Of a DNA stretch of 49,525 bases, positions 36 through 47,176 are shown piece after piece; the stretch's first letter is position 1, and each line of letters begins with the position of its first letter. The translations under genes and the position numbers were made by a program. A model generated the notes under the pieces. That model was given only the letters and a program-made list of their open reading frames with translations, was not told the DNA's origin and did no database searches. Source of the DNA: Rhodospirillaceae bacterium (lineage in GTDB: Bacteria > Pseudomonadota > Alphaproteobacteria > Rhodospirillales > JABHCV01); NCBI GenBank assembly GCA_018671895.1, contig JABHGV010000054.1, positions 1 to 49,525 on the forward strand, read 5' to 3'.

Positions 36-89
36 CCGCATATCGCTTAATCTGTAACGATCTTATAGATGTCAACAGGGAGGTTAGAC

Positions 90-2021
90 ATGGCCAGAGT
101 TGATAGTTCGCTGACATTTAGGCGTTACAAGGACGGCGACACGGAGCATGTGCCTTGGGATGAGGATTTCATCCAGTCGGGTGAATCCTACAAATGTCCA
201 ACCTATGTCCATCGCACACCGCCGTGCCAGGGTTCGTGTCCTTCTGGACACGATATTCGCGGCTGGCTTTCCATCGTCCGCGGCCTTGATCGCCCGGACG
301 GAACGCCGTGGCAAGAATACGCATTTAAGCGCATGGTTTTATCGAATCCCTTCCCTGCTGTCATGGGTCGGGTATGTCCGGCCCCGTGTCAGGACGGCTG
401 TAACCGTAATGAAATCGAAGAACACGTTGGCATCAACGCCATCGAGCAGTTCATCGGCGATTATGCGTTAGATAACAAACTCGGCTTCGACAAGCCCGCG
501 AAGGAAACCGGCAAGAAGGTCGCTATCGTCGGTGGCGGACCGGCCGGACTGGCCGCCGCTTACTTCCTGCGCCAGAAAGGCCATGCCTGCACGATATTTG
601 AGTCCTATCACGAACTGGGCGGAATGATGTGCTTCGGCATTCCCGGATACCGGACGCCGCGCGATGTTCTGAACGGCGAAATCCAGCGCATCATCAACAT
701 GGGTGTCGATGTTCAATTGAACACCCGTGTCGGTACCGACGTTACCGTCGAAAAGCTTGAAAAAGACTACGACGCCATTTTCTGGGGCATTGGCGCAACA
801 TCGGGCAAGGCCCTGCCGATCCCGGGTGCCGAAGCGCCGAACTGCGTTGATGGTATCTCGTTCCTGCAAGCCTTCAACGAAGGAAGATTACAGCATTTAA
901 GCGGTAGAATCCTTGTTGTGGGAGCCGGTGATACGGCAATGGATGTAGCCGCCGTGGCGCGCCGCATCGGCCACATTGACCATGTATCGGAAAAAGACCA
1001 TCCGGAAACCGTTATTCTTGGCCACACCGCCCATGATGTCGCCACCGTCGCGGCGCGCCAGGGTGCCGATGTGTGGGTTGTCTATCGCCGTCCCATTTCG
1101 AAGGCTCCGGCGACTCAGCACGAACTTGAGTCCGTCATCAAGGAAGGTGTTGAAATTCATGAAAGTCTGGCACCGCTGGAAGTCATCGTCGGTGACGATG
1201 GCCGGGCAACGGCGCTTCGGGTGCAGCCCGTCGACTGGAAAGATGGCGAGATGACGCCGCGCGAAGGTGCCGAACATAACATCGAGTGCTCGCTGATCGT
1301 CAGCGCCACCGGTCAGGCCAGCGACTTCACCGGATTCGAGGATTTGGACAACGGCTGGGGCCAGATGGATGCCGACAAGGTTTATCAGGTCAAAGACAAG
1401 CCCGGGCATTTCGTTGGTGGCGACGCCATCAAGCCGCATCTTCTGACTACGGCCATCGGCCATGCCTCGATTGCCGTCGATGAAATCGACCTGTATATGT
1501 CGGGCAAGGATTTAAAGGACCGCCCGAAGGTCGATGCCCATCATTTCAGCTTACTCAACGAGCTGCGCCAGCATTCACTGGAACCCGCCACATACAATCA
1601 CAAGCCGTCCTGGGGCACGGACAGCGAAGACTATGCCGTCCACAACTACGAAGACCGTTCGTTCGCCGAAATCGCCACACACGACAAGTTATATATGGCC
1701 TATTTCGAACAGGAAAAAATGAACCGCCGTCAGGAAGTCGATATTTCGTCGGATTCCGTGCTTGGCAACTTCCAGGAACGGTTCGAAGGATTGAACGAGG
1801 AAACCGCTGTTACCGAGGCCGAACGCTGCATGAGCTGCGGCATGTGCTTCGAATGCGACAGTTGCGTCATTTATTGCCCGCAGGTCGCCATCTACAAGGT
1901 CAAGAAGGACAAACACGCCGTCGGCCGCTACGTCGATACCGATTACGACAAATGCGTCGGCTGTCACATATGCATGGATGTCTGCCCGACGGGCTATATC
2001 CAGATGGGGTTGGGTGAATAA
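90..2021 (+). CDS. dsrL: DsrL, iron-sulfur flavoprotein NAD(P)H oxidoreductase of the reverse Dsr pathway
   Basis: Cytoplasmic oxidoreductase related to the glutamate synthase small subunit. In sulfur oxidisers it couples sulfite formation by reverse DsrAB to NAD(P)+ reduction. In the 643-residue product the N-terminal GltD-like Fe-S region has cysteines at about 36, 46, 50, 96, 100 and 104. An FAD dinucleotide fold (VAIVGGGPAGLAAA) follows at about 144-158 and a second, NAD(P)-type fold (ILVVGAGDTAMD) at about 280. The C-terminal two-cluster ferredoxin domain has cysteines at about 580-596 and 622-632. That C-terminal domain and the dsrJOP neighbours separate DsrL from plain GltD. I chose ATG 90 because AGGGAGGTT (77-85) sits five bases upstream; an in-frame ATG at 69 has no such site. 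A DsrL-like gene ends 54 bases upstream. Confidence 0.93.
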   Translation: MARVDSSLTFRRYKDGDTEHVPWDEDFIQSGESYKCPTYVHRTPPCQGSCPSGHDIRGWLSIVRGLDRPDGTPWQEYAFKRMVLSNPFPAVMGRVCPAPCQDGCNRNEIEEHVGINAIEQFIGDYALDNKLGFDKPAKETGKKVAIVGGGPAGLAAAYFLRQKGHACTIFESYHELGGMMCFGIPGYRTPRDVLNGEIQRIINMGVDVQLNTRVGTDVTVEKLEKDYDAIFWGIGATSGKALPIPGAEAPNCVDGISFLQAFNEGRLQHLSGRILVVGAGDTAMDVAAVARRIGHIDHVSEKDHPETVILGHTAHDVATVAARQGADVWVVYRRPISKAPATQHELESVIKEGVEIHESLAPLEVIVGDDGRATALRVQPVDWKDGEMTPREGAEHNIECSLIVSATGQASDFTGFEDLDNGWGQMDADKVYQVKDKPGHFVGGDAIKPHLLTTAIGHASIAVDEIDLYMSGKDLKDRPKVDAHHFSLLNELRQHSLEPATYNHKPSWGTDSEDYAVHNYEDRSFAEIATHDKLYMAYFEQEKMNRRQEVDISSDSVLGNFQERFEGLNEETAVTEAERCMSCGMCFECDSCVIYCPQVAIYKVKKDKHAVGRYVDTDYDKCVGCHICMDVCPTGYIQMGLGE

Positions 2022-2060
2022 CCGGCCCCAGTGATTTACGACAATGGAGAAAAGTTAACA

Positions 2061-2555
2061 ATGAATACTGTGAGAGGCATTTTCGCCGCGCTGCTGCTGG
2101 CGCTGACAGCCGTTGCCGTCAGCCCTGCCGGGGCTTTGGCCGCCGATTCCGGTGTGCCGGTCCCCTCGCCCGCGAAAGCATTCAAGGGTGAGCAATGTGT
2201 CGAACCGGTCGAGACCATGCGTCGTGAGCATATGGTTTACCTGAAGCATCAGCGCGACGAGACCCTGCGCGACGGTATTCGCGGCCAAAAATACGGCCTG
2301 AATGAATGCATCGACTGTCATGCCACGGCTGACCCTTCGATTGCCGGTGGCAAAATCCGCACCCTGAAGCCGTTCTGCAAGGAATGCCACGCCTACGCCG
2401 CCGTCTCCATCGACTGCTTTGCCTGTCATTCGGGCAAGGCCCAAAATGATAAAACCGGCAGCCTGTTGCCGAACGAAAAAGAAGAAATGGCCGACGACCT
2501 GATCCGTATGGTCAAGGCGCACACCAACGCGCCCGCCATAGGAGACAAGAAATGA
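2061..2555 (+). CDS. dsrJ: DsrJ, periplasmic triheme cytochrome c
   Basis: Periplasmic electron-transfer subunit of the DsrMKJOP transmembrane complex, 164 residues. A signal peptide covers about residues 1-28 (MNTVRGIFAALLLALTAV onward, cleavage near ALA-A). Three CXXCH haem motifs lie at about 83-87 (CIDCH), 106-110 (CKECH) and 119-123 (CFACH). DsrJ is known for one haem with unusual His/Cys ligation; the single extra cysteine upstream of the haem motifs, Cys46 in FKGEQCVEPV, is the obvious candidate ligand. An upstream in-frame GTG at 2031 would put extra residues before a complete signal peptide, so ATG 2061 is preferred. The stop overlaps the dsrO start by four bases (ATGA), suggesting coupled translation. 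Confidence 0.93.
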   Translation: MNTVRGIFAALLLALTAVAVSPAGALAADSGVPVPSPAKAFKGEQCVEPVETMRREHMVYLKHQRDETLRDGIRGQKYGLNECIDCHATADPSIAGGKIRTLKPFCKECHAYAAVSIDCFACHSGKAQNDKTGSLLPNEKEEMADDLIRMVKAHTNAPAIGDKK

Positions 2556-3292
2556 GTGATACCACCTTCAACGCCGCCCGGCGGCGTTTGCTGGCTGGCA
2601 CCGCTGCGCTGGCTGGCATCTCCGTCGCACCGGGAATCCGGTTGATCTCCACCGCCGAAGCTGCCGTTAGTGGACCGGCAAGCGCCAAAAACCGCTGGGG
2701 CCTGCTGATTGATTCCAACAAGTGCGACGCCGGTTGCACGGAATGCGTCACCGCATGTAAAACCGAACAGGGCTGGACCGGAAACGACCGCCCGGAAAGT
2801 GATCCGCAGTGGATCCGCAAGGTTAACCTGAAGGACAACAAGACCGGTGCCACCGCATCGCTGCCGGTGATGTGCCAACACTGTGAACATCCGCCGTGTG
2901 TCGATGTTTGCCCGACCGGCGCATCGATGAAGCGCGAAGACGGCATCGTTCTGGTCGACAAGCACATTTGCATCGGCTGTCGTTATTGCATGATGGCGTG
3001 CCCGTACAAGGCGCGGTCCTTCGTTCACGAAGACGTCCATAATCAAAAGCAGCACATGCCGCGCGGCAAGGGTACGGTCGAGTCCTGCACCTTGTGCGTT
3101 CATCGTGTTGATGCCGGTGGCACGCCTGCCTGTGTCGAAGCCTGCACCGAAAAAGCCGGTCGCGACGCCATGGTGTTCGGCGACCTCAATGATCCGGCGA
3201 GCGAAATTTCGAAAAAGCTCGCCAAACACGTCACAACCCGACTGCGTGCCGACCTTGGGCTTGAGCCCGGCGTCCACTACAGCGGCATATAG
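2552..3292 (+). CDS. dsrO: DsrO, Tat-exported ferredoxin-like iron-sulfur subunit
   Basis: Periplasmic iron-sulfur subunit of DsrMKJOP, thought to pass electrons between DsrJ and the membrane subunit DsrP. The 246-residue product starts with a Tat-type signal (RRRLLAG at about 10-16, then a hydrophobic stretch to about residue 37). Four cysteine groups follow: CDAGCTECVTAC, CQHCEHPPCVDVC, CIGCRYCMMAC, and the split CTLC...CVEAC. That is enough for four [4Fe-4S] clusters, the layout of NrfC/PsrB-type subunits. A GGAG site lies about ten bases before the ATG, inside the 3' end of dsrJ. The partner membrane protein gene begins 18 bases downstream. Confidence 0.93.
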   Translation: MSDTTFNAARRRLLAGTAALAGISVAPGIRLISTAEAAVSGPASAKNRWGLLIDSNKCDAGCTECVTACKTEQGWTGNDRPESDPQWIRKVNLKDNKTGATASLPVMCQHCEHPPCVDVCPTGASMKREDGIVLVDKHICIGCRYCMMACPYKARSFVHEDVHNQKQHMPRGKGTVESCTLCVHRVDAGGTPACVEACTEKAGRDAMVFGDLNDPASEISKKLAKHVTTRLRADLGLEPGVHYSGI

Positions 3293-3310
3293 GAAAGAGG
3301 AACTAGACAC

Positions 3311-4588
3311 ATGAAACGGATCCTCTTTACACAGATCCAAGGCAATTCGACCGGCTATATCGCTCTGCTGGGCTGGCTTGGTGCGTTCGTTGCCGCCGCC
3401 CTTGGTGCTGTCTACTTCATGGAGCACAACGGCCACTATGTGACCGGCATGAACAACCAGATCGTCTGGGGCATGCCGCACGTCTTTGCCGTGTTCCTGA
3501 TTGTCGCGGCATCGGGTGCGCTAAACATCGCATCCATCTCGTCGGTTTTCGGGCGCGTCATGTACAAACCGCTTGGCAGACTGTCGACGCTGCTTTCCCT
3601 GGCCCTTCTGGCTGGTGGCCTGATGGTTCTGGTCCTTGATCTGGGCCGTCCAGATCGCCTCGACGTTGCCATGATGAAATATAATTTCAAATCCATTTTC
3701 GCCTGGAACATCTATCTGTACACCGGCTTCTTCGCCGTTGTCGGCGTTTACATGTGGATGATGATGGAACGGCGTATGAACCGTTATACCAAGATTGCCG
3801 GTACCGTCGCCTTTATCTGGCGACTGGCGCTGACAACCGGTACCGGTTCGATCTTCGGCTTCCTGGTTGCCCGTCAGGCTTATGACGCAGCGATCATGGC
3901 GCCGATGTTCATCATCATGTCGTTCTCGTTCGGCCTCGCCATATTTATTCTTGTCCTGATGGCCGTTAGCAACGGCACAGGTCGGCCGTTGGGTGACGTA
4001 CTGATCGCCAAGATGAAGAACCTGCTCGGCGTATTCGTTGCCGCTGTCCTGTACTTTGCCGTCGTTCAGCACCTGACCAACCTGTACGCCACCGAGCATC
4101 ACGGCGTCGAAGCCTTCATCCTCAGCGATGGCGGCATCTACACAGGCCTGTTCTGGTTCGGACAAATTCTGATTGGCGGACTGTTGCCGCTGGCGCTGCT
4201 GTATCACCCGACCACAGGCAAGGACCGGATGATGATCGCACTCGCCGCTGCCATGGTTGTTATCGGTGGCATGGCGCAAGTTTACGTCATCATCATCGGC
4301 GGTCAGGCATACCCGCTGTCGATCTTCCCCGGTTACGAGGTTTCCAGCAGCTTCTACGACGGTATCGTCGGAAGCTATTCCCCGTCCCTGCCAGAAGTCG
4401 TCCTGGGCCTAGGCGGTGTCGCAACAACGTTATTGATCGTCGCCATTGCCATCAAGGCGCTGCCGTTCCTGCCCGCGACATTGGCCGATGCCGATATCGA
4501 CCCCCACTATGTGGAACCGGAACCGGAACCAGAGCCAGAAGAAGCAGACTCTGACGACGAAGGCGAAGAGGCCGCCGAAGCAGCATGA
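3311..4588 (+). CDS. dsrP: DsrP, NrfD/PsrC-like integral membrane subunit with acidic C-terminal tail
   Basis: Quinone-interacting membrane anchor of DsrMKJOP, 425 residues. The protein is strongly hydrophobic with about ten predicted membrane segments from residue 18 to about 390, as in the NrfD/PsrC/HybB family. It follows dsrO with an AGAGGAA ribosome site and overlaps the next gene by four bases (ATGA, 4585-4588). The last 28 or so residues form a polyanionic tail (EPEPEPEPEEADSDDEGEE) that is hydrophilic and likely disordered. I do not associate such a tail with the family as a whole; it could be a lineage feature or a docking segment. Family assignment rests on hydropathy, order and neighbours. 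Confidence 0.9.
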   Translation: MKRILFTQIQGNSTGYIALLGWLGAFVAAALGAVYFMEHNGHYVTGMNNQIVWGMPHVFAVFLIVAASGALNIASISSVFGRVMYKPLGRLSTLLSLALLAGGLMVLVLDLGRPDRLDVAMMKYNFKSIFAWNIYLYTGFFAVVGVYMWMMMERRMNRYTKIAGTVAFIWRLALTTGTGSIFGFLVARQAYDAAIMAPMFIIMSFSFGLAIFILVLMAVSNGTGRPLGDVLIAKMKNLLGVFVAAVLYFAVVQHLTNLYATEHHGVEAFILSDGGIYTGLFWFGQILIGGLLPLALLYHPTTGKDRMMIALAAAMVVIGGMAQVYVIIIGGQAYPLSIFPGYEVSSSFYDGIVGSYSPSLPEVVLGLGGVATTLLIVAIAIKALPFLPATLADADIDPHYVEPEPEPEPEEADSDDEGEEAAEAA

Positions 4589-33030: not shown

Positions 33031-33933
33031 TCAGTGCCACGGCATTTCGCTCGACACGACCGCCTTTGGAACCGCACCCTCGCCCGGTCGCCACGGACGC
33101 GGAGTTATCTTTGGCTTCGGGCCAAGCGGCTCTACATTCACAACCGGTGATGCAACAACCGCAGAAGGCTTCTTTTCAGGTTTCTTCTGCATATCGGCAG
33201 GCAGTTTTTCCTGCGCGGTAATCCACTTCATTTCTTCCTTAATCATCCGCGTGTGATGGCTGGACTCGGCATCGCGCACCGAGGTTATGATCTCGCTGCG
33301 CACAGATTTCGGAAACCGCTCGAGGTTTTCAAGGAAAAGAAACTTGATCGACGGTCGAATGCTTTCCGACAGCAGCAGGCTGGAAACCAGTTTCCTGCGA
33401 ATTTCACTGCGCATGTTCCCGGCCTCGGTCAATTCGAAGAACTGTTTGACGAATTCCCTAGGCGCTATGGTGCCATCAAGCAACGTTTGTAAGTTACGGC
33501 GCAGGGCAACAGAATATTCCCTACGGCTGTGGTCGATAAAGCTTGATGCCTTTGATCGAACAGAGGCGATGGCTTCGGGGTCGAAAGCGTTTTCAGTAAC
33601 CAGCGATATGCACTTTTTGACCAACGGGTGCTTCGAGGTGTCACCGACAATATCGTATATACCCCCCAGCAACTTGCTGGACGCGCCCAGCGGACTAAGC
33701 CGCGTCGCCGCCGCAAGCGCCATCGGTGCCTCCGGGTCCCGGGTCGCCATCATCGCCAGAGCCAGCGGGTCATCGATCACTTGCAGGTCCAGATGATGGT
33801 TCATCAGATATTCCGGCATCAGAATCCGTGTTCCCTCGCCAGGGACGCAAATAGGCTCACCATTCTCGTAGTCGTCCTTGATCTTCAAGGCCGTCTTCAA
33901 TCCGTCATGGGTAATGCCTTCGAGCTGGCTCAT
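33031..33933 (-). CDS. Uncharacterised, mainly helical protein
   Basis: A 300-residue protein that I do not recognise. No signal peptide or membrane segment is visible. Residues 50-230 are predicted helical with a repeat-like feel (IDDPLALAMMATRDPEAPMA, KLLGGIYDIVGDTSKHPLVK, RRKLVSSLLLSES). The last 50 residues are Pro/Lys-rich and probably disordered (QKKPEKKPSAVVASPVV, PKPKITPRPWRPGEG). Its start codon overlaps the stop of the upstream HTH gene by four bases (ATGA), so both are co-translated, and a regulator-effector pairing is possible. It ends near the strong bidirectional terminator. Confidence 0.8.
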   Translation of the reverse strand: MSQLEGITHDGLKTALKIKDDYENGEPICVPGEGTRILMPEYLMNHHLDLQVIDDPLALAMMATRDPEAPMALAAATRLSPLGASSKLLGGIYDIVGDTSKHPLVKKCISLVTENAFDPEAIASVRSKASSFIDHSRREYSVALRRNLQTLLDGTIAPREFVKQFFELTEAGNMRSEIRRKLVSSLLLSESIRPSIKFLFLENLERFPKSVRSEIITSVRDAESSHHTRMIKEEMKWITAQEKLPADMQKKPEKKPSAVVASPVVNVEPLGPKPKITPRPWRPGEGAVPKAVVSSEMPWH

Positions 33934-34355
33934 AAGCTCAATTCCCCGACCGCCATGTCTTTATTGGATGCAACGCTGACCTGATCGGCGTTGTTGTTCA
34001 TCCACCATCTGCGAAACAGGCGAGATCCTTCCTGAACATCTTCAGGGGCCAGCTTCCTGTTCAGGCTTTCCTGATAGTCGAGGCTGCGCCGAAGGGTCTT
34101 CAGATGGGCCATGAAGCGCGGGTCCGTACGCCGCGGTGCAGTTTCCAGCGTTTCCAGCCGTTCTGCCAGCACCAGCGTCAGCAGAACCAGCCTGCTGGCC
34201 GGGATGCGCATATGCCCGGAACGCCATTTACTGTATGTCGATGGTGTTACGCCCAAAGCCGCGGCAAGTTTACGTCCTGGAACGCCTGCGTCTTCTAGTC
34301 CCCTGAATACTGTGTATCCATTTTCAGCCCCGGATACGGTCTGCCTACCCGTCAT
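33930..34355 (-). CDS. Small helix-turn-helix protein of unknown role
   Basis: A 141-residue protein with an XRE/Cro-like helix-turn-helix near residues 26-52 (GRKLAAALGVTPSTYSKWRS). A helix follows (RLVLLTLVLAERLETLE), and then an uncharacterised C-terminal half, RSLDYQESLNRKLAPEDVQE to FRRWWMNN. GGGGGCAG precedes ATG 34355. It is the first gene of a two-gene unit with the unknown gene downstream (ATGA overlap). Its upstream region contains a perfect CtrA-type box about 100 bases from the start and then a dense group of GANTC sites, which suggests cell-cycle control. Confidence 0.82.
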   Translation of the reverse strand: MTGRQTVSGAENGYTVFRGLEDAGVPGRKLAAALGVTPSTYSKWRSGHMRIPASRLVLLTLVLAERLETLETAPRRTDPRFMAHLKTLRRSLDYQESLNRKLAPEDVQEGSRLFRRWWMNNNADQVSVASNKDMAVGELSL

Positions 34356-34454
34356 TGTCTGCCCCCAATTTAACCCAGAAGTATAAAATTCCCGTTGTGT
34401 CGGTACGATATTATGAACACAACATCTTGTAGGTCGTTATTAGGCGAAATATGG

Positions 34455-34470
34455 TTAAGAAGACATTAAC
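34455..34470 (+). promoter_or_regulatory. Perfect CtrA-type box
   Basis: TTAAGAAGACATTAAC fits the full CtrA consensus TTAA-N7-TTAAC. It lies 100 bases upstream of the HTH gene start on the minus strand and at the edge of the GANTC cluster. The match is exact, but CtrA itself is not in the window and binding is an inference. Confidence 0.6.
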
Positions 34471-34490
34471 AAGATGAATTCAAAGGAACA

Positions 34491-34892
34491 GACTCGGTGC
34501 GAATCATGGCCGAATCAGTACTCATCAAGACTAGATTTTTAGTCGATTGGCTGAGTCCTTTGGAAAAAACTGAAAAAAATTATTGAGTCCTTTCATCGCA
34601 CTAGAGAGTCCTTCTCGGAAACTGATTCAAGACAAGTAACGCCGATACACGAACAGCAAAAACTGATTCAATGCATTGAAAAGAATCTACTTTTTCTTTT
34701 AACGATGACAGAGCACGGCAAAAAACTAGTCCGATCATGGTTAATACCGGGCCGTTACAGAGTCACTTTGTGAACAGATGAAATGAACAAATCGTACCAG
34801 ATGATGTGTTCTGAGCATTGACACTACCCCGCATATATAATAATCCGGTTGTAGTTTGAATGCGCAAAAGACTCTAATGATTCCAACGAGTC
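34491..34892. promoter_or_regulatory. Dense cluster of 13 GANTC (CcrM-type methylation) sites
   Basis: GANTC pentamers start at 34491, 34501, 34512, 34553, 34585, 34606, 34624, 34665, 34683, 34760, 34870, 34879 and 34888. Chance would give one or two in 402 bases. All four N variants occur, so this is not one repeated unit, although three sites lie in GAGTCCTT copies. In alphaproteobacteria GANTC is methylated by CcrM and read by GcrA. A methylation-timed control region is the natural hypothesis. Confidence 0.7.
34812..34841 (+). promoter_or_regulatory. Possible sigma-70-type promoter
   Basis: A perfect TATAAT (34836-34841) is preceded by TGAGCA (34812-34817) at 18-base spacing, a weak -35. 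A perfect TTGACA (34818-34823) also lies upstream but only 12 bases away, which is too close. It would drive the small unknown gene at 35025 and the fructokinase gene with a leader of about 175 bases. Confidence 0.35.
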
Positions 34893-35024
34893 GCATGAAA
34901 AACAGGATAAAGAATTCGTTTTGATATCCAGATACGTTCCAATGATGCTGGGGGCATTTTCCAAGGGACGGGATAGCAAAACATAAAAATAAAAATCCCA
35001 GCCAGGCACGAAGAAGGGGACAAC

Positions 35025-35354
35025 ATGCCTAGCAAGGAACCGGCCAAAGGGCTCAAGCCATACACCATCTTCCATGTCGCTTTGGCGGCACCAGAAGACA
35101 TTCACGTAGACACCGTTCTGGCACGCAGTGCCGAAGCGGCACGCGCCATCGCCATCGACCAGCATTCCGACAGCAAGATTCTGCATGTGCGCGGCGTCGG
35201 CGACAGCACAAGCGAGGCTGAAGCCGATACCCTGCAATGTCATTCGGAAACCATCGCCAGCAGCATTCCCCTGCCCGGTGCCCGCTTCATCAAGGGGCGT
35301 TTTCTGGCGACCAGCATTTCCGACGATCCGATCCTCGACAGCGTCAGCGAATAA
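35025..35354 (+). CDS. Small hypothetical protein
   Basis: A 109-residue soluble protein of unknown function. It is rich in Ala, Ser and acidic residues, starts MPSKEPAKGLKPYTIFHVAL and ends SDDPILDSVSE; one cysteine is present (TLQCHSE). There is no signal peptide or membrane segment. AAGAAGGGGA precedes the ATG, and codon use matches the neighbours, so it is probably a genuine gene. The fructokinase gene begins 42 bases downstream on the same strand. The region upstream is the GANTC-rich spacer. Confidence 0.7.
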   Translation: MPSKEPAKGLKPYTIFHVALAAPEDIHVDTVLARSAEAARAIAIDQHSDSKILHVRGVGDSTSEAEADTLQCHSETIASSIPLPGARFIKGRFLATSISDDPILDSVSE

Positions 35355-35396
35355 GGTATCGTAATCCCGACCCTGCCACAGGGAGTGGGAGCAACC

Positions 35397-36314
35397 ATGC
35401 GCATCGGCATTGATCTGGGCGGCACCAAAATCGAAGGCATTGTGCTGTCCGACACGGGCGAGGAAATCTCGCGCCGCCGCTTGCCAACACCGTCCGGCGA
35501 TTATCAGGCAATCCTGCAAGTCATTAATGAACTGGTCACCGCCCTGGAATCAGAGGCAACCATTGAAACCCTGCGCACGCCCGTCGGCGTCGGCATTCCG
35601 GGAACCCTGTCACCGGCAACCGGCCTGATAAAAAACGCCAACTCCACCTGCCTGATCGGCAAGCCGCTGGATGATGATCTAAGCGGTCTGCTTGGGCGTC
35701 CGGTGCGACTGGCCAACGATGCCAACTGCTTTACCATTTCAGAGGCGACCGATGGCGCCGCAGCCGGGGCTGATGTTGTCTTCGGCGTTATTCTTGGCAC
35801 CGGTGTCGGTGGCGGCATCGTCGCCAATGGCGATGCCATTACCGGCATCAACGCCATCGGCGGTGAGTGGGGACACAATCCCCTACCCTGGCCGCAGATG
35901 TTGCCGGGTGGCAATGATGAAAGACCGGGGCCAGAGTGTTATTGCGGGCTGTGTGGCTGCATCGAGACGTTTCTGTCAGGACCAGCACTGACGGCCGACT
36001 ATCGAGCCCATGGCGGTGGTGACGAGACGCCCGAGCAGATCGCAACAATGGACACCGCCGAGGCAAATGCCGCGCTGGAACGATACGAGCACCGTCTGGC
36101 GCGGGCTCTTGCATCGGTGATCAACGTCATCGACCCTGACGTCATCGTCCTTGGCGGTGGCCTGTCCAACATGACGCGGTTGTACGACAGAGTTCCCGAG
36201 CAGTGGCAACAATGGGTATTTTCCGACCGCGTTGATACGTCTCTGGTGCGCAATCGTTTCGGCGATTCAAGTGGCGTCCGGGGCGCCGCATGGCTGTGGG
36301 ATAGCCCCCGTTAA
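35397..36314 (+). CDS. mak: ROK-family sugar kinase, probable fructokinase
   Basis: Cytosolic sugar kinase of 305 residues closely resembling E. coli Mak. The ATP motif MRIGIDLGGTKIEGIVL is at 1-17. GVGIPGTLSP, IKNANSTCLIG and RLANDANCFTISEATDGAAA follow. The ROK signature region is GTGVGGGIVANG with GEWGHNPLPWP, and the zinc motif is CYCGLCGCIETFLSGPAL. The Mak-like NANST and PLPW elements favour fructose over glucose or GlcNAc, but substrate is inferred. ATG 35397 is preceded by GGGAGTGGGAGC; an in-frame ATG four codons upstream is less well placed. Confidence 0.88.
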   Translation: MRIGIDLGGTKIEGIVLSDTGEEISRRRLPTPSGDYQAILQVINELVTALESEATIETLRTPVGVGIPGTLSPATGLIKNANSTCLIGKPLDDDLSGLLGRPVRLANDANCFTISEATDGAAAGADVVFGVILGTGVGGGIVANGDAITGINAIGGEWGHNPLPWPQMLPGGNDERPGPECYCGLCGCIETFLSGPALTADYRAHGGGDETPEQIATMDTAEANAALERYEHRLARALASVINVIDPDVIVLGGGLSNMTRLYDRVPEQWQQWVFSDRVDTSLVRNRFGDSSGVRGAAWLWDSPR

Positions 36315-37971: not shown

Positions 37972-39258
37972 TTAGCCGGAGCCGGGGAGGTCCTCGTTGG
38001 CACCGGCAATCTGCGGTGCGGACGGAGTCGTCGCGTCGATGCGATAGACAACTGGCGTATTCAGCACCTGATTCTTGGACAGGCGGATAGACCACGGCGC
38101 GCCGATTCCGGCCTTTGCAAGATCGTTCCGTACCGTTCCTTGTTCAGCATCACTAAACGGCCCAACAACGACGCGGTGACGCCATTTATCATCGGACTTG
38201 TACGAGACCACGGCGGGTACAAGGGCCGCCCGGCTGGTATCTGCCTTGCTGGAGATCAGCGTTTCGGTAGCAAAGCTGCGGGCGTTATCGGCAACATCAA
38301 AGCTTCCAATCACGAAAAACATTTTACCGGTTGTCGTTCCAGTTTCAAGCTGGGCAAGTTCATCGGTGGCGTCAGGTGCGTCGACCTTCGGTGCTTTCGA
38401 CGGCACCGGCGCGGCTTCGGCGATCGGCGCGGATGCCTTCGGTGTCGGGCGCACGGCAATCATCCAGTCGGCATGCTTGACACGAATGGCCCAGGCATCA
38501 TCCAGCCCGGCCTTTCTGATATGGCTGTTAACGCCGGACTTTTGACTATCGACGAACGGGCCAACGGCGACGCGATACACTTCGTTGCCATCAAGACGCG
38601 ATGCCATCACGGCTGGCCCCAAATCGCGGTGACTGCGCACGAATGAACGAGCGTTATTGCGTTTCGAGAAACTGCCAACGACGTAGTACAGGTCTGCATT
38701 CCGGTCATTCGACCAGATGCGGTGTCCGGGAATCAAAAGGCGCTCGGACCTTCCATCGACATCCAGCTTGGCAACTTCGGGTTCTGGTGCGGCAGCCTGT
38801 TCAGGTGCGGGTTCGACCGCGGCCAATTTTTCGACGCTGACGACCGGATCAACAACCGGCGCGCTTGACGTTTCGATCACCGCCAGTTCTTCGACGCTCA
38901 CCACTGGTTCAGGCGTCCGAGCGACGGGCATCGTGGTTACAGGCTGACGGTTCACGATGGATGTGATTAGAACAGGTTCAGGTGAAGACTGGTGTGAAGT
39001 TTGGGGCTCGGCGGCAGCGACCAGGACGGCACCGGAATCGTCCACATTATCGGAACAGATTTCCTTACCTGCAACACCGCGCCACAGGGCACAGTCCTTC
39101 TGCGTAACCATGGAAATACCGTGATCGGATATGGATTTCTCGGTCGCCAGCAGGGAAATGCCATCAAGCGCCCATGAGGCAATTTGAATGGGCACCGGCA
39201 GCGCACAACCACCGAGTAATGCCGTACATACGACGATTATTAAACCCCTGCCCATCAT
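37972..39258 (-). CDS. Lipoprotein with two SPOR-like repeats
   Basis: A 428-residue exported lipoprotein. The signal MMGRGLIIVVCTALLGGC ends in a lipobox. A Pro/Val/Glu-rich, probably disordered linker occupies about 80-175. Two SPOR-like domains follow: ADLYYVVGSFSKRNNARSFV to VAVGPFVDSQKSGVNSHIRK, and KMFFVIGSFDVADNARSFAT to HRVVVGPFSDAEQGTVRNDL. SPOR domains bind denuded peptidoglycan at division sites, so a septal role is likely. GGGGAAGGA precedes ATG 39258; earlier in-frame starts (39351, 39441) lack a fitting signal peptide. Two 12-bp direct repeats and a CtrA-type box lie upstream. Confidence 0.85.
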   Translation of the reverse strand: MMGRGLIIVVCTALLGGCALPVPIQIASWALDGISLLATEKSISDHGISMVTQKDCALWRGVAGKEICSDNVDDSGAVLVAAAEPQTSHQSSPEPVLITSIVNRQPVTTMPVARTPEPVVSVEELAVIETSSAPVVDPVVSVEKLAAVEPAPEQAAAPEPEVAKLDVDGRSERLLIPGHRIWSNDRNADLYYVVGSFSKRNNARSFVRSHRDLGPAVMASRLDGNEVYRVAVGPFVDSQKSGVNSHIRKAGLDDAWAIRVKHADWMIAVRPTPKASAPIAEAAPVPSKAPKVDAPDATDELAQLETGTTTGKMFFVIGSFDVADNARSFATETLISSKADTSRAALVPAVVSYKSDDKWRHRVVVGPFSDAEQGTVRNDLAKAGIGAPWSIRLSKNQVLNTPVVYRIDATTPSAPQIAGANEDLPGSG

Positions 39259-39383
39259 TCCTTCCCCAGCATTTTCTAATTGTATTGACCGTTTTATCGG
39301 TGTCGGTCTTTTGGCCGTTAATCTTATGGTGGCGCGTTTTGATTTATTCATTGCCTTCAAGGCTCCTGTGGTCCCTTCGGTTG

Positions 39384-39415
39384 TCCCCACCACAGTTGGA
39401 CTTTCCCCACCACAG
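39384..39415. repeat. 12-bp direct repeats 20 bp apart upstream of the SPOR lipoprotein gene
   Basis: TCCCCACCACAG occurs at 39384-39395 and 39404-39415, a 20-base offset that places both on the same face of the helix. The first copy also pairs with CTGTGGT (39366-39372) as an inverted repeat. It lies about 130-160 bases upstream of the minus-strand lipoprotein start. A regulator site is plausible; none is recognised. Confidence 0.5.
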
Positions 39416-39519
39416 ATGGGGACAAGTATGAACGGGTACAACGCGAATCGCCAGAAAATAAGCGATTCCGGGATGTTAGGGTTATTTTCGGGTGTTATTC
39501 TAACTGTCTAAATGACTGC

Positions 39520-39535
39520 GTTAACAATTTGTTAA
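39520..39535 (-). promoter_or_regulatory. Second CtrA-type box
   Basis: On the minus strand this reads TTAACAAATTGTTAAC, an exact TTAA-N7-TTAAC, and the core is also palindromic. It sits just after the aspS stop codon and about 260 bases upstream of the SPOR lipoprotein start on the same strand. Confidence 0.5.
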
Positions 39536-39540
39536 GCTGT

Positions 39541-41364
39541 CTAACCTATATCGCCGTCGGATTCGCTTTTTGCCGGCTTCGGCAGGTTCAACTTCAAGCT
39601 GAGCTCTTTCAAATGCGCATTATCGACTGCCGCCGGAGCCCCCATCAGCAAGTCTTCGGCCTGCTGATTCATCGGAAACGCGATGACTTCGCGGATATTC
39701 GGCTCGTCGGCCAGCATCATGACAATGCGGTCGATGCCCGGTGCGGAACCGCCATGAGGCGGGGCCCCATAACGGAAAGCCTGCAGCATGCCGCCGAATT
39801 CCTTTTCGACCACATCGGCACCGTAACCGGCGATTCCGAACGCTTTTAACATGATGTCTGGGCGATGGTTTCTGATCGCTCCGCTGGAAAGTTCGATGCC
39901 GTTACAGACGATGTCATATTGATAAGCGAGGATGTCGAGAGGGTTGTCTGCCGCCAGCGCATCCATGCCGCCCTGGGGCATCGAAAACGGATTGTGACTG
40001 AATTCGATCTTGCCGCTGTCTTCATCCATTTCGTACATCGGATAATCGACAATCCAGCAGAAGCGGAAAGCATTTTTCTCGATCAGATCCAACTCCTCGG
40101 CGATACGGGTCCGGGCCAGTCCTGCGAACTTCTCCGCCATCGACTGCTGACCGCAGACGAAGAACACGGCGTCGCCGTCACCGACATTATCGTTGACCTC
40201 GTTCAGGGCCGTCTTGATGGCTTCGATACGATCGGGCTCAAGATTCTTGCCGATCGGGCCCTTGGCTTCGCCGTCGGCGAAAATAATATAACCAAGACCG
40301 CCTGCCCCTTCATCGTCCCGGGCCCAAGCGTTCAGCTTGTCGAAGAAGCTGCGCGGTTTGTCCGCCGCACCGGTCGCCGGAATGGCGCGCACGACGGCAC
40401 CCTTCTCGACATTTTTGGCGAACAGCCCGAAGCCAGAATCGCGGAAGGCTTCGGTAACATCGGCCATGATCAGCGGATTGCGCAGGTCGGGCTTGTCGTT
40501 GCCGTATTTCAGCATCGATTCTGCGAATGGGATCTGCGGGAACGGCAGCGGGGTAATGTTGCGGTCCGCAGCAAACTCCTCGAAAACGCCATGCAGGACG
40601 GGCTCAATGGCTTCGAACACATCTTCCTGGGTGACGTAAGCCATCTCGAAGTCGAGTTGGTAAAATTCACCGGGGCTGCGGTCGGCGCGCGCGTCTTCAT
40701 CGCGGAAGCACGGCGCAATCTGGAAATATTTATCGAAGCCAGACACCATCAGCAGTTGCTTGAATTGCTGCGGAGCCTGCGGCAGGGCGTAGAACTTTCC
40801 AGGGTGCATGCGGCTGGGCACCAGAAAGTCACGCGCCCCTTCCGGCGAAGACGCCGTCAGGATCGGCGTCTGCATTTCAAGGAAGCCCTGGTCGGTCATG
40901 CGCTTGCGGATCGACGAGATGACGTTGCTGCGCAACACCATGTTGGCGTGGACCTTTTCGCGCCTGAGGTCGATAAACCGGTGCGAAAGCCGCATTTCGT
41001 CTGAATATTCGGCCTCGCCGGCGACCTGCATGGGCAGGACCTCGGCGGTGTTCTCGACGATGATCTCTTCGACCTTCAATTCCACCTGCCCCGTCGGCAG
41101 CGATGCATTTACGGTTTCTTCTGAGCGCTCGACAACCGCCCCGGTCACCGTCAATACGCTTTCCGGACGCGCCGCCTCGGCGGTTTCAAACAACGGGCTG
41201 GAAACGTCGATAACGCACTGGGTCAGGCCATAATGGTCACGCAGATCAATGAACAGCAGATTGCCGTGATCACGCTTGCGATGGACCCAGCCCGACAGGC
41301 GAACCTGGGTACCGGCATCATCCAGTTTCAGTGCGCCACACGTGTGAGTGCGATAAGGGTGCAT
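39541..41364 (-). CDS. aspS: Aspartyl-tRNA synthetase
   Basis: Class II synthetase of 607 residues, the usual bacterial length. The N-terminal OB-fold ([21 protein letters not shown]) is at about 5-25. Class II motif 2 is [20 protein letters not shown] at about 221-240. A GAD-type insertion domain lies in the middle, and motif 3 is [20 protein letters not shown] near residue 545. In alphaproteobacteria such enzymes are often non-discriminating and also charge tRNA-Asn; nothing visible here decides that. It is divergent from rnd across 161 bases. Confidence 0.97.
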
Positions 41365-46474: not shown

Positions 46475-47176
46475 TCAGGCCTTGCGGCTTTCAATGTCTT
46501 CCAACACCTTGGCCAACAATGGCCGGGTGATACGGCGGCGTTCTGACAGCGCCAGCCGGTCGGCGGCCTCGACCAGTTCACTAACCGCATCGAAGGAACG
46601 TTCCATGCGCGCCTGAACAAAAGTAATGGCATCGCTGTCGACCTTTAACTGACGGTCCGCAAACTGCTTCACCAGTACCGCGGCGATCAGGGCATCATCA
46701 GGAGTACCAATTTCGACAACACCGGAAGACTTCATCCGCGACGCCAGATCGGCCAGCTGGAATTGCCATCTCGATGGTGCCGTGGCAGCAGTCAACAAAA
46801 TGTGCCGACCGTCTTCCCGCGCCGTGTTGTACAGGTGGAAAAGGTTTTCCTCCAACCTGTCGCTTGCATCACTGGCAAGCAGCGCATCCACATCTTCGAT
46901 GACGCAAGCCCGGAATTCATCCCACGGGTGGGGTGGAGCCTCGCCAAACAGTTCTTCCCGGCTCAGGCGAACGCCTCCGCTGGTGCCCAAAAAGACTTCT
47001 GCAAGATGGCTTTTACCGCACCCGGCAGGGCCGGAAACAACAAGTGTCGGGCCCGGCCAGTCAGGCCAGCGATCAAGCCATGCGACGGCGTCTGAATTGC
47101 AAGGCGCGACAAGAAAGTCTGCGCCGTCCAAAGACGGGCGATGGTCAAATTCAAGAACCAGTTGCGACGGGGGCAT
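46475..47176 (-). CDS. hdaA: HdaA, DnaA-related regulatory inactivator of replication initiation
   Basis: A 233-residue AAA+ protein that promotes hydrolysis of DnaA-bound ATP after initiation. The N-terminal QLVLEFDH (residues 5-12) is a beta-clamp-binding motif as in Hda. Walker A is SGPAGCGKSHLAEVFL at about 48-63 and Walker B is CVIEDVDALLASDASD. It lacks the DNA-binding domain IV of DnaA. The AI-2E family gene ends six bases upstream. This is the DnaA/Hda-like gene commonly found near ppk in alphaproteobacteria. Confidence 0.92.
   Translation of the reverse strand: MPPSQLVLEFDHRPSLDGADFLVAPCNSDAVAWLDRWPDWPGPTLVVSGPAGCGKSHLAEVFLGTSGGVRLSREELFGEAPPHPWDEFRACVIEDVDALLASDASDRLEENLFHLYNTAREDGRHILLTAATAPSRWQFQLADLASRMKSSGVVEIGTPDDALIAAVLVKQFADRQLKVDSDAITFVQARMERSFDAVSELVEAADRLALSERRRITRPLLAKVLEDIESRKA

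Follow-up and report, generated by a model that had tools for sequence, protein, structure and literature searches.

Within the window, by which we mean the whole stretch of 49,525 nt that was analysed, an AT-rich gap separates a gene for a small uncharacterised protein from the divergently oriented gene for an XRE-type helix-turn-helix (HTH) regulator, behind which an uncharacterised helical-repeat protein is encoded (Table 1). Across the order, the small protein is around 100 amino acids long and is usually encoded opposite the helical-repeat protein. The latter shares 39-65% sequence identity with the 51 relatives that were aligned, and its AlphaFold model (mean pLDDT 85) matched only common repeat folds, with a best Z score of 7.8. 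A plasmid search returned 18 records with partial matches, which are mostly named ROK or fructokinase and none of which covers 80% of the query. At a distance from the gap, positions 46475-47176 appear to encode an HdaA-like DnaA regulatory inactivator, whose NCBIfam matches lie below the cut-offs, and the first genes of the window (69-4588) resemble, as judged by eye, the dsrL-J-O-P run of a reverse sulphite reductase cluster for sulphur oxidation.

Table 1. Genes, GANTC sites and further features in and around the gap (positions in the window)
Feature	Position	Strand	Remark
Uncharacterised helical-repeat protein "up2", 300 aa	33031..33933	-	no Pfam or NCBIfam match
XRE-type HTH regulator, 141 aa, divergent from small gene	33930..34355	-	
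AT-rich intergenic gap between divergent genes	34356..35024	.	669 bp, 40% G+C, contains all 13 GANTC
TTAA-N7-TTAA, CtrA-type box	34455..34469	+	one of two in window, 0.16 expected
Non-kept GANTC	34491..34495, also 34553, 34585, 34606, 34624, 34760	.	kept in 0 or 1 of 5 relatives
Conserved GAATC pair, starts 11 bp apart	34501..34516	.	kept in 4/5 relatives
GATTC-N13-GAATC around palindrome TTCAATGCATTGAA	34665..34687	.	both sites kept in 5/5 relatives
Conserved block ACCAGATGATGTG, upstream of TTGACA	34796..34808	+	candidate activator or operator site
Promoter-like core TTGACA...TATATAATA, facing small gene	34818..34842	+	also present in 16 genomes from other families of the order
Triplet GACTC-N4-GATTC-N4-GAGTC, 9-bp steps	34870..34892	.	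kept in 5/5 relatives
Uncharacterised small protein, 109 aa, C-terminal P-x-ARFI-x-G-x-F conserved	35025..35354	+	no family match
ROK-family protein, downstream of small gene	35385..36314	+	

Density and conservation of the GANTC sites

The original prediction had described thirteen GANTC sites in about 400 bp of intergenic DNA, and all thirteen are indeed found between positions 34491 and 34892, inside this one gap. When compared with 20,000 dinucleotide-preserving shuffles, the whole gap contains 13 sites where 3.2 are expected (shuffle maximum 12), and the stretch from 34476 to 34900 contains 13 where 2.5 are expected (shuffle maximum 9); 13 sites were thus reached by none of the 20,000 shuffles in either case. 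Since the excess is measured here against shuffles of the same DNA, it amounts to around four- to fivefold; the earlier figure of eight times random holds against equal base composition, but not against this stricter background. The entire window carries 125 GANTC compared with 231 in shuffles, i.e. about half, which agrees with the at least twofold GANTC deficit of alphaproteobacterial genomes described in a previous study (PMC3973325). The genome itself was sampled through the window and 20 further stretches, together 338,043 bases or approximately 13.5% of the 2.5-Mb assembly. In this sample, the cluster ranks first, which the original prediction had named as support: its 12 sites per 400 bp are followed by places with 8, 7, 6 and 6, and the second-densest 400 bp within the window carries 5.

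The gap is conserved in all five family relatives examined, and its neighbours are largely the same; in G005, no HTH gene was found adjoining the orthologous gap. The cluster is also present at the orthologous place in each of them, another outcome that the original prediction had named as support; this place is the GANTC maximum of its stretch in all five (9, 9, 10, 10 and 7 sites per 400 bp), although a second place in G001 has 7 sites per 400 bp. The orthologous place likewise comes first on the 170-kb contig of G004 (10 sites, the next place having 5) and on the 176-kb contig of G005 (8 sites, no other 400 bp having 5 or more). In the alignment, seven of the thirteen sites recur at the same position in four or all five relatives, namely those at 34501, 34512, 34665, 34683, 34870, 34879 and 34888. 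Equal conservation is seen at only 8.3% of the other positions, and none of 20,000 random sets of thirteen sites was as good. Blocks of the form GATTC...GACTC that resemble positions 34665-34687 occur at one locus each in families f7, f17 and f26.

Chance or base composition could account for part of this pattern, as the sites outside the conserved columns are close to expectation (22 compared with 18.2 in six genomes, using whole-gap shuffles), and the non-conserved sites of the window number 6 where 3.2 are expected. As an explanation of the cluster itself, however, chance is very improbable: besides the shuffles, none of which reached 13 sites, the conservation of seven sites in the relatives already contradicts it, and the small gene is preceded by dense clusters in seven families. 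Since seven sites are kept and the remainder occur at about the frequency expected by chance, the idea that all thirteen form one element is not supported; it is restated here as seven sites that appear to be under selection, arranged in three blocks, and six bystanders.

The kept sites might also be parts of ordinary transcription factor binding sites, for instance for the divergently encoded XRE-type regulator, and their methylation would then be incidental. Conservation does extend into the flanks, as GATTCCAACGAGTC is found in all six family genomes and a conserved block surrounds TTCAATGCATTGAA. We nevertheless regard this explanation as unlikely. GANTC is the commonest palindromic XYNY'X' pattern of the gap (13 occurrences, followed by ATNAT with 9), and among the five XYNZW patterns represented by at least 40 pairs, it also shows the strongest phasing. 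The site at 34870 reads GACTC, GAATC or GAGTC in the family; its middle base changes while GA.TC stays, and the CcrM pattern is therefore kept despite the change of the free base. The remaining six kept sites show no variation of the middle base wherever they are retained. Dense arrays at other loci furthermore share little beyond GANTC when compared by eye, save one block in locus L122.

A 24/25 copy of the GANTC triplet was seen elsewhere in the window's own genome (L002:1501-1525, contig C96), where it lies, as judged by eye, between predicted ftsB and eno genes and is preceded by a CtrA-like TTAA-N7-TTAG. The triplet was considered as the mark of a regulon and this was rejected. A second exact copy of GATTCCAACGAGTC was found in none of the five other family genomes. 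An eno match was obtained in four relatives. By eye, ftsB follows eno in G005 alone among them, and the 420 bases read there contain no GANTC. A triplet regulon is therefore not generalised to the family.

The promoter-like core and dense arrays across the order

Between the second and the third conserved GANTC block lies a stretch that resembles a promoter facing the small gene. A model built from the sequence of this core alone was matched, with E values of at most 0.001, in 22 of 297 genomes from the order, six of them in the family and 16 outside. The 16 outside genomes all share one or more neighbour genes with the window; in G012, this evidence is a short small-protein match, which was also found by the later profile search. 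The sole further match in 385 genomes of the class, the window's own genome aside, is a weak one in G444 (E 9e-4), which is not accompanied by the neighbour genes and was taken as chance. A canonical sigma-70 scan of the gap found no promoter and the spacing between TTGACA and TATAAT is non-canonical; for these reasons, "promoter" is used here as a prediction from conservation and position. In 19 of the 22 loci, among them 13 of the 16 outside the family, a GANTC lies 25 to 75 bases downstream of TTGACA, compared with 9.8% of random places; three of the 16 outside loci have none in this interval. Conserved GANTC thus occur in the predicted promoter region, both as the seven kept sites of the family and as sites at +25 to +75 beyond it.

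Which of the flanking genes the core belongs to was addressed with 79 loci found via the helical-repeat protein, for which the best 80 of 81 relatives were taken. The core was matched in 18 of these loci (E values up to 5 were accepted; the weakest match had 0.12), although some of the absences may reflect that 10 of the 79 loci have fewer than 900 bases upstream. The small gene is present in all 18 core-positive loci and in only three of the 61 others, and the core therefore most likely belongs to the small gene. Two other explanations of the conserved stretch were discarded. An RNA element is not supported: at gathering thresholds, no Rfam family matched the window, the one match to the gap when searched by itself scored far below its cut-off, and the core contains no base pair that is changed on both sides. 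Minus-strand reading frames that overlap the gap were rejected as genes, as the core alignment contains gaps of one and two bases.

The gap also contains a TTAA-N7-TTAA box, which we take to be the CtrA consensus. A full box of this type was found in none of the gaps of the five family relatives. In family f21, a CtrA-type TTAA-N7-TT(A/T)A starts at +26 from TTGACA in ten of ten loci, which are, however, related to one another, and the pattern was chosen after they had been viewed. The only other TTAA-N7-TTAA of the window, at 39521-39535, lies between the genes at 37972-39441 and 39541-41364.

A profile of the small protein detected it in 50 of 317 genomes of the order, and the helical-repeat gene lies within the examined stretch in 39 of these 50 loci. 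One cultured relative with the locus is Magnetovibrio blakemorei MV-1 (L137). In 18 of the 50 genomes, the small gene is preceded by at least seven GANTC per 400 bp (counted over up to 1000 bp, which is shorter at contig ends and partly coding sequence). These dense arrays belong to seven families, f1, f3, f5, f7, f15, f19 and f25, with six genomes in f1, the family of the window, and seven in f19; the highest density is 15 GANTC in 400 bp. The other 32 small-gene loci are without a dense array, and density is therefore not essential to the locus. When the helical-repeat protein is taken as the starting point, at least seven sites per 400 bp upstream are found in seven of the 79 loci, all of which are among the 21 loci with the small gene, and four of which are from the window's family.

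A further dense place was noticed in locus L197 (genome G162, family f21) at approximately 1412-1687, where 10 GANTC per 400 bp lie upstream of a gene that was recognised by eye as ftsZ; its steps include 9, 12, 12, 18 and 24 bp, and it resembles the array of locus L125 over 51 bases. Arrays are not common to ftsZ promoters: 27 of 30 ftsZ loci could be placed (three were dropped as they had no recognisable start), of which 24 have between zero and four sites from -400 to +50 and three have five. The ftsZ locus of the window's genome has one GANTC in this interval.

Helical phasing and chromosomal position

In two dense arrays, runs of steps between GANTC sites are close to one or two turns of the DNA helix, with 11, 11, 21, 10 and 11 bp in G019 (L100) and 12, 10, 12, 10, 11 and 22 bp in G009 (L125). 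For the window, L100, L122 and L125 taken together, pair distances of up to 45 bp give a mean cosine of 0.55 at 10.5 bp with a phase near zero, a value that was reached by none of 3000 jittered sets, in which each site was moved by up to 8 bp. Taken singly, L100 (4/3000) and L125 (1/3000) are strongly phased, the window moderately (30/3000) and L122 weakly (192/3000). Background GANTC pairs from the own-genome sample and parts of the G004 and G005 contigs have an R of 0.13 at 10.5 bp. In the same four gaps, A- plus T-tracts reach 0.18, TTTT alone 0.40 and TTNAA 0.41, so that the periodicity is partly shared by patterns other than GANTC.

As the spacing had been noticed by eye before the first test, a replication set was used, made up of nine additional genomes with dense arrays, none of them among the first four or in the window's family. 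Here, the mean cosine was 0.33 (1/2000) and, with distances up to 65 bp, 0.28 (0/2000), with a period peak at 10.0-10.5 bp; the phasing was thus replicated, but is weaker than in the first set. The jitter null allows for the dependence among pairs from one array. The replication set includes seven f19 genomes, however, which are interrelated; when each family was represented by a single genome, 5 and 9 of 2000 jittered sets were as good, and G007 alone gave 29 and 55 of 2000. The five family relatives alone are weakly phased (56 and 11/2000), the dense arrays of G188, G048 and G099 are unphased, and loci with few sites showed no phasing (221 and 240/2000). The GANTC sites of dense arrays, taken as a set, therefore lie on one face of the helix. 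In the literature collection searched, no description of helical phasing of GANTC was found, which does not prove that it is unpublished.

Phasing of this kind would be expected of an array that resembles the binding sites of SeqA, in which a cooperative reader contacts GANTC sites on one face of the helix, prefers hemimethylated DNA and holds or silences the locus after passage of the replication fork; the divergently encoded HTH protein, multimers of GcrA or another protein might be this reader. The phasing of the first set and its replication, together with the low background phasing, argue for such an array. However, the conserved spacings of the window (18 and 9 bp) match the helical period only in part, phasing is weak in the five f1 relatives taken by themselves, some dense arrays lack it altogether, and TTNAA and TTTT are somewhat phased in the same four gaps. 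We consider this reading rather unlikely.

A role as chromosomal replication origin with methylation-controlled firing is extremely improbable. The gap is AT-rich, has many methylation sites and a CtrA-type box, and the Caulobacter origin contains several GANTC (PMC3973325). However, no sign change of the G+C skew was seen at the locus, whether in the window, on the 170-kb contig of G004 or on the 176-kb contig of G005. The gap contains a single DnaA box match with one mismatch, although the E. coli-type consensus used may not be that of this group. Chromosomal position could be read from three near-complete genomes of other families, in which the skew was sampled every 0.1-0.2 Mb: the distance of the locus to the skew maximum, i.e. 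the terminus, is 0.2-0.4 Mb in G029, 0.16-0.30 Mb in G071 and 0.21-0.29 Mb in G107, the last of which is one contig of 1.09 Mb. The helical-repeat gene lies beside the small gene in all three, and all three are below the measure for dense arrays (4, 3 and 5 sites compared with 7). Since it lies near the skew maximum, the locus is not an origin in these genomes; it may be biased to the terminus, though three genomes are few.

It is tempting to go further and to propose an alphaproteobacterial counterpart of SeqA for GANTC: a protein that recognises hemimethylated DNA would bind cooperatively to phased arrays that lie upstream of the small gene and close to the terminus, and the locus would sense that replication is nearly complete, with the small protein and the regulator pair timed accordingly to late S phase or to division. 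This bolder idea is raised because a single complex of GcrA and RNA polymerase should not need phasing, as we infer, and SeqA uses helical phasing of its sites (PMC493266); it is distinctly unlikely in our view. The GATC clusters of oriC and the dnaA promoter in E. coli, which are bound by SeqA, likewise consist of clustered sites of an orphan adenine methylase; however, the methylase and the motif are different, and the array described here is not at an origin.

A putative CcrM-sensed divergent promoter

The genome encodes a CcrM orthologue, of which the C-terminal 247 residues are present before the contig end cuts the gene (best PDB match 6pbd, E 2.5e-95), and an apparently complete GcrA. 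The CcrM-type methyltransferase that the original prediction depended on is thus present, together with a candidate reader. In Caulobacter, GANTC sites made by replication remain hemimethylated until CcrM methylates them late in the cell cycle, and GcrA reads methylated sites at promoters (PMC7987155, PMC8116508). According to the same studies, P1 of Caulobacter ctrA needs hemimethylation (PMC8116508), a YGAKTCG form of the site has been proposed for activation by GcrA, and no such extension was found in B. subvibrioides (both PMC7987155). The last site of the triplet (34888) reads C-GAGTC-G and fits YGAKTCG in all six family genomes. This is the one site of the family at which the extended motif is kept, and the exact sequence TGATTCG is found in only five of ten f21 loci. 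Methylation lowers the activity of the gcrA promoter of A. tumefaciens, which has six GANTC in 250 bp (PMC11514494); upstream of gcrA in the window's genome, no GANTC was seen in approximately 400 bases read by eye.

Our favoured reading, which we hold with moderate confidence, is that the gap is a divergent promoter that senses methylation by CcrM, is read by GcrA and receives input from CtrA. The roles of GcrA as reader and of CtrA at the putative promoter are probable; promoter function of the core, methylation, the binding proteins, the direction of regulation and its timing are what we infer. Late in the cell cycle, CcrM would methylate the GANTC of the gap, and passage of the fork would leave them hemimethylated. 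The seven kept sites, which flank the core of the small gene upstream and just downstream and precede the pair of regulator and helical-repeat genes, would be read by GcrA bound to RNA polymerase, and CtrA would act via TTAA-N7-TTAA boxes. By analogy with the gcrA and ctrA promoters, fork passage would then alter how strongly the small gene and the regulator pair are expressed. If the locus lies near the terminus as in the three genomes of other families, its sites would pass from full to hemimethylation towards the end of replication, and expression could thereby be timed to late S phase. The idea of a methylation-sensed element proposed at the outset is supported in part, with CcrM and GcrA, the top rank of the cluster in the sample, its conservation in five of five relatives and the promoter-like core in its favour; its thirteen-site extent is not supported, nor is an origin at this locus.

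Several known systems are similar to the putative promoter described here. The gcrA promoter of A. tumefaciens (PG) shares a GANTC cluster upstream of an open reading frame and CcrM-dependent activity (PMC11514494); however, it drives a different gene and has fewer sites, and the part of the publication available mentions neither phasing nor conservation across families. The ctrA promoter of Caulobacter and its relatives depends on hemimethylation, is read by GcrA and receives CtrA input, with at most five to six GANTC in 300 bp upstream (PMC8116508), whereas the arrays described here have up to 12-15 sites per 400 bp and lie at uncharacterised genes. Caulobacter ctrA is, according to the same study, also proximal to the origin, in contrast to the terminus-proximal place of the locus in three genomes. 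Promoters and origins of alphaproteobacterial repABC loci contain more GANTC than expected (PMC11514494); however, no rep gene is among the identified neighbours here, and the locus is chromosomal and near the terminus in three relatives.

The locus would be a novel form of CcrM-sensed promoter: those of which we found descriptions have up to around six GANTC, whereas here a single uncharacterised gene is preceded, across seven families, by arrays of up to 15 sites per 400 bp that as a set are phased along the helix. It offers a concrete target for the question of whether GANTC is read cooperatively in alphaproteobacteria, in the way that SeqA reads GATC in gammaproteobacteria. Taken together, the putative promoter would tie the small protein, the XRE-type regulator and the helical-repeat protein to the cell cycle, and its place near the terminus in three genomes suggests that it may serve as a gauge of the completion of replication.
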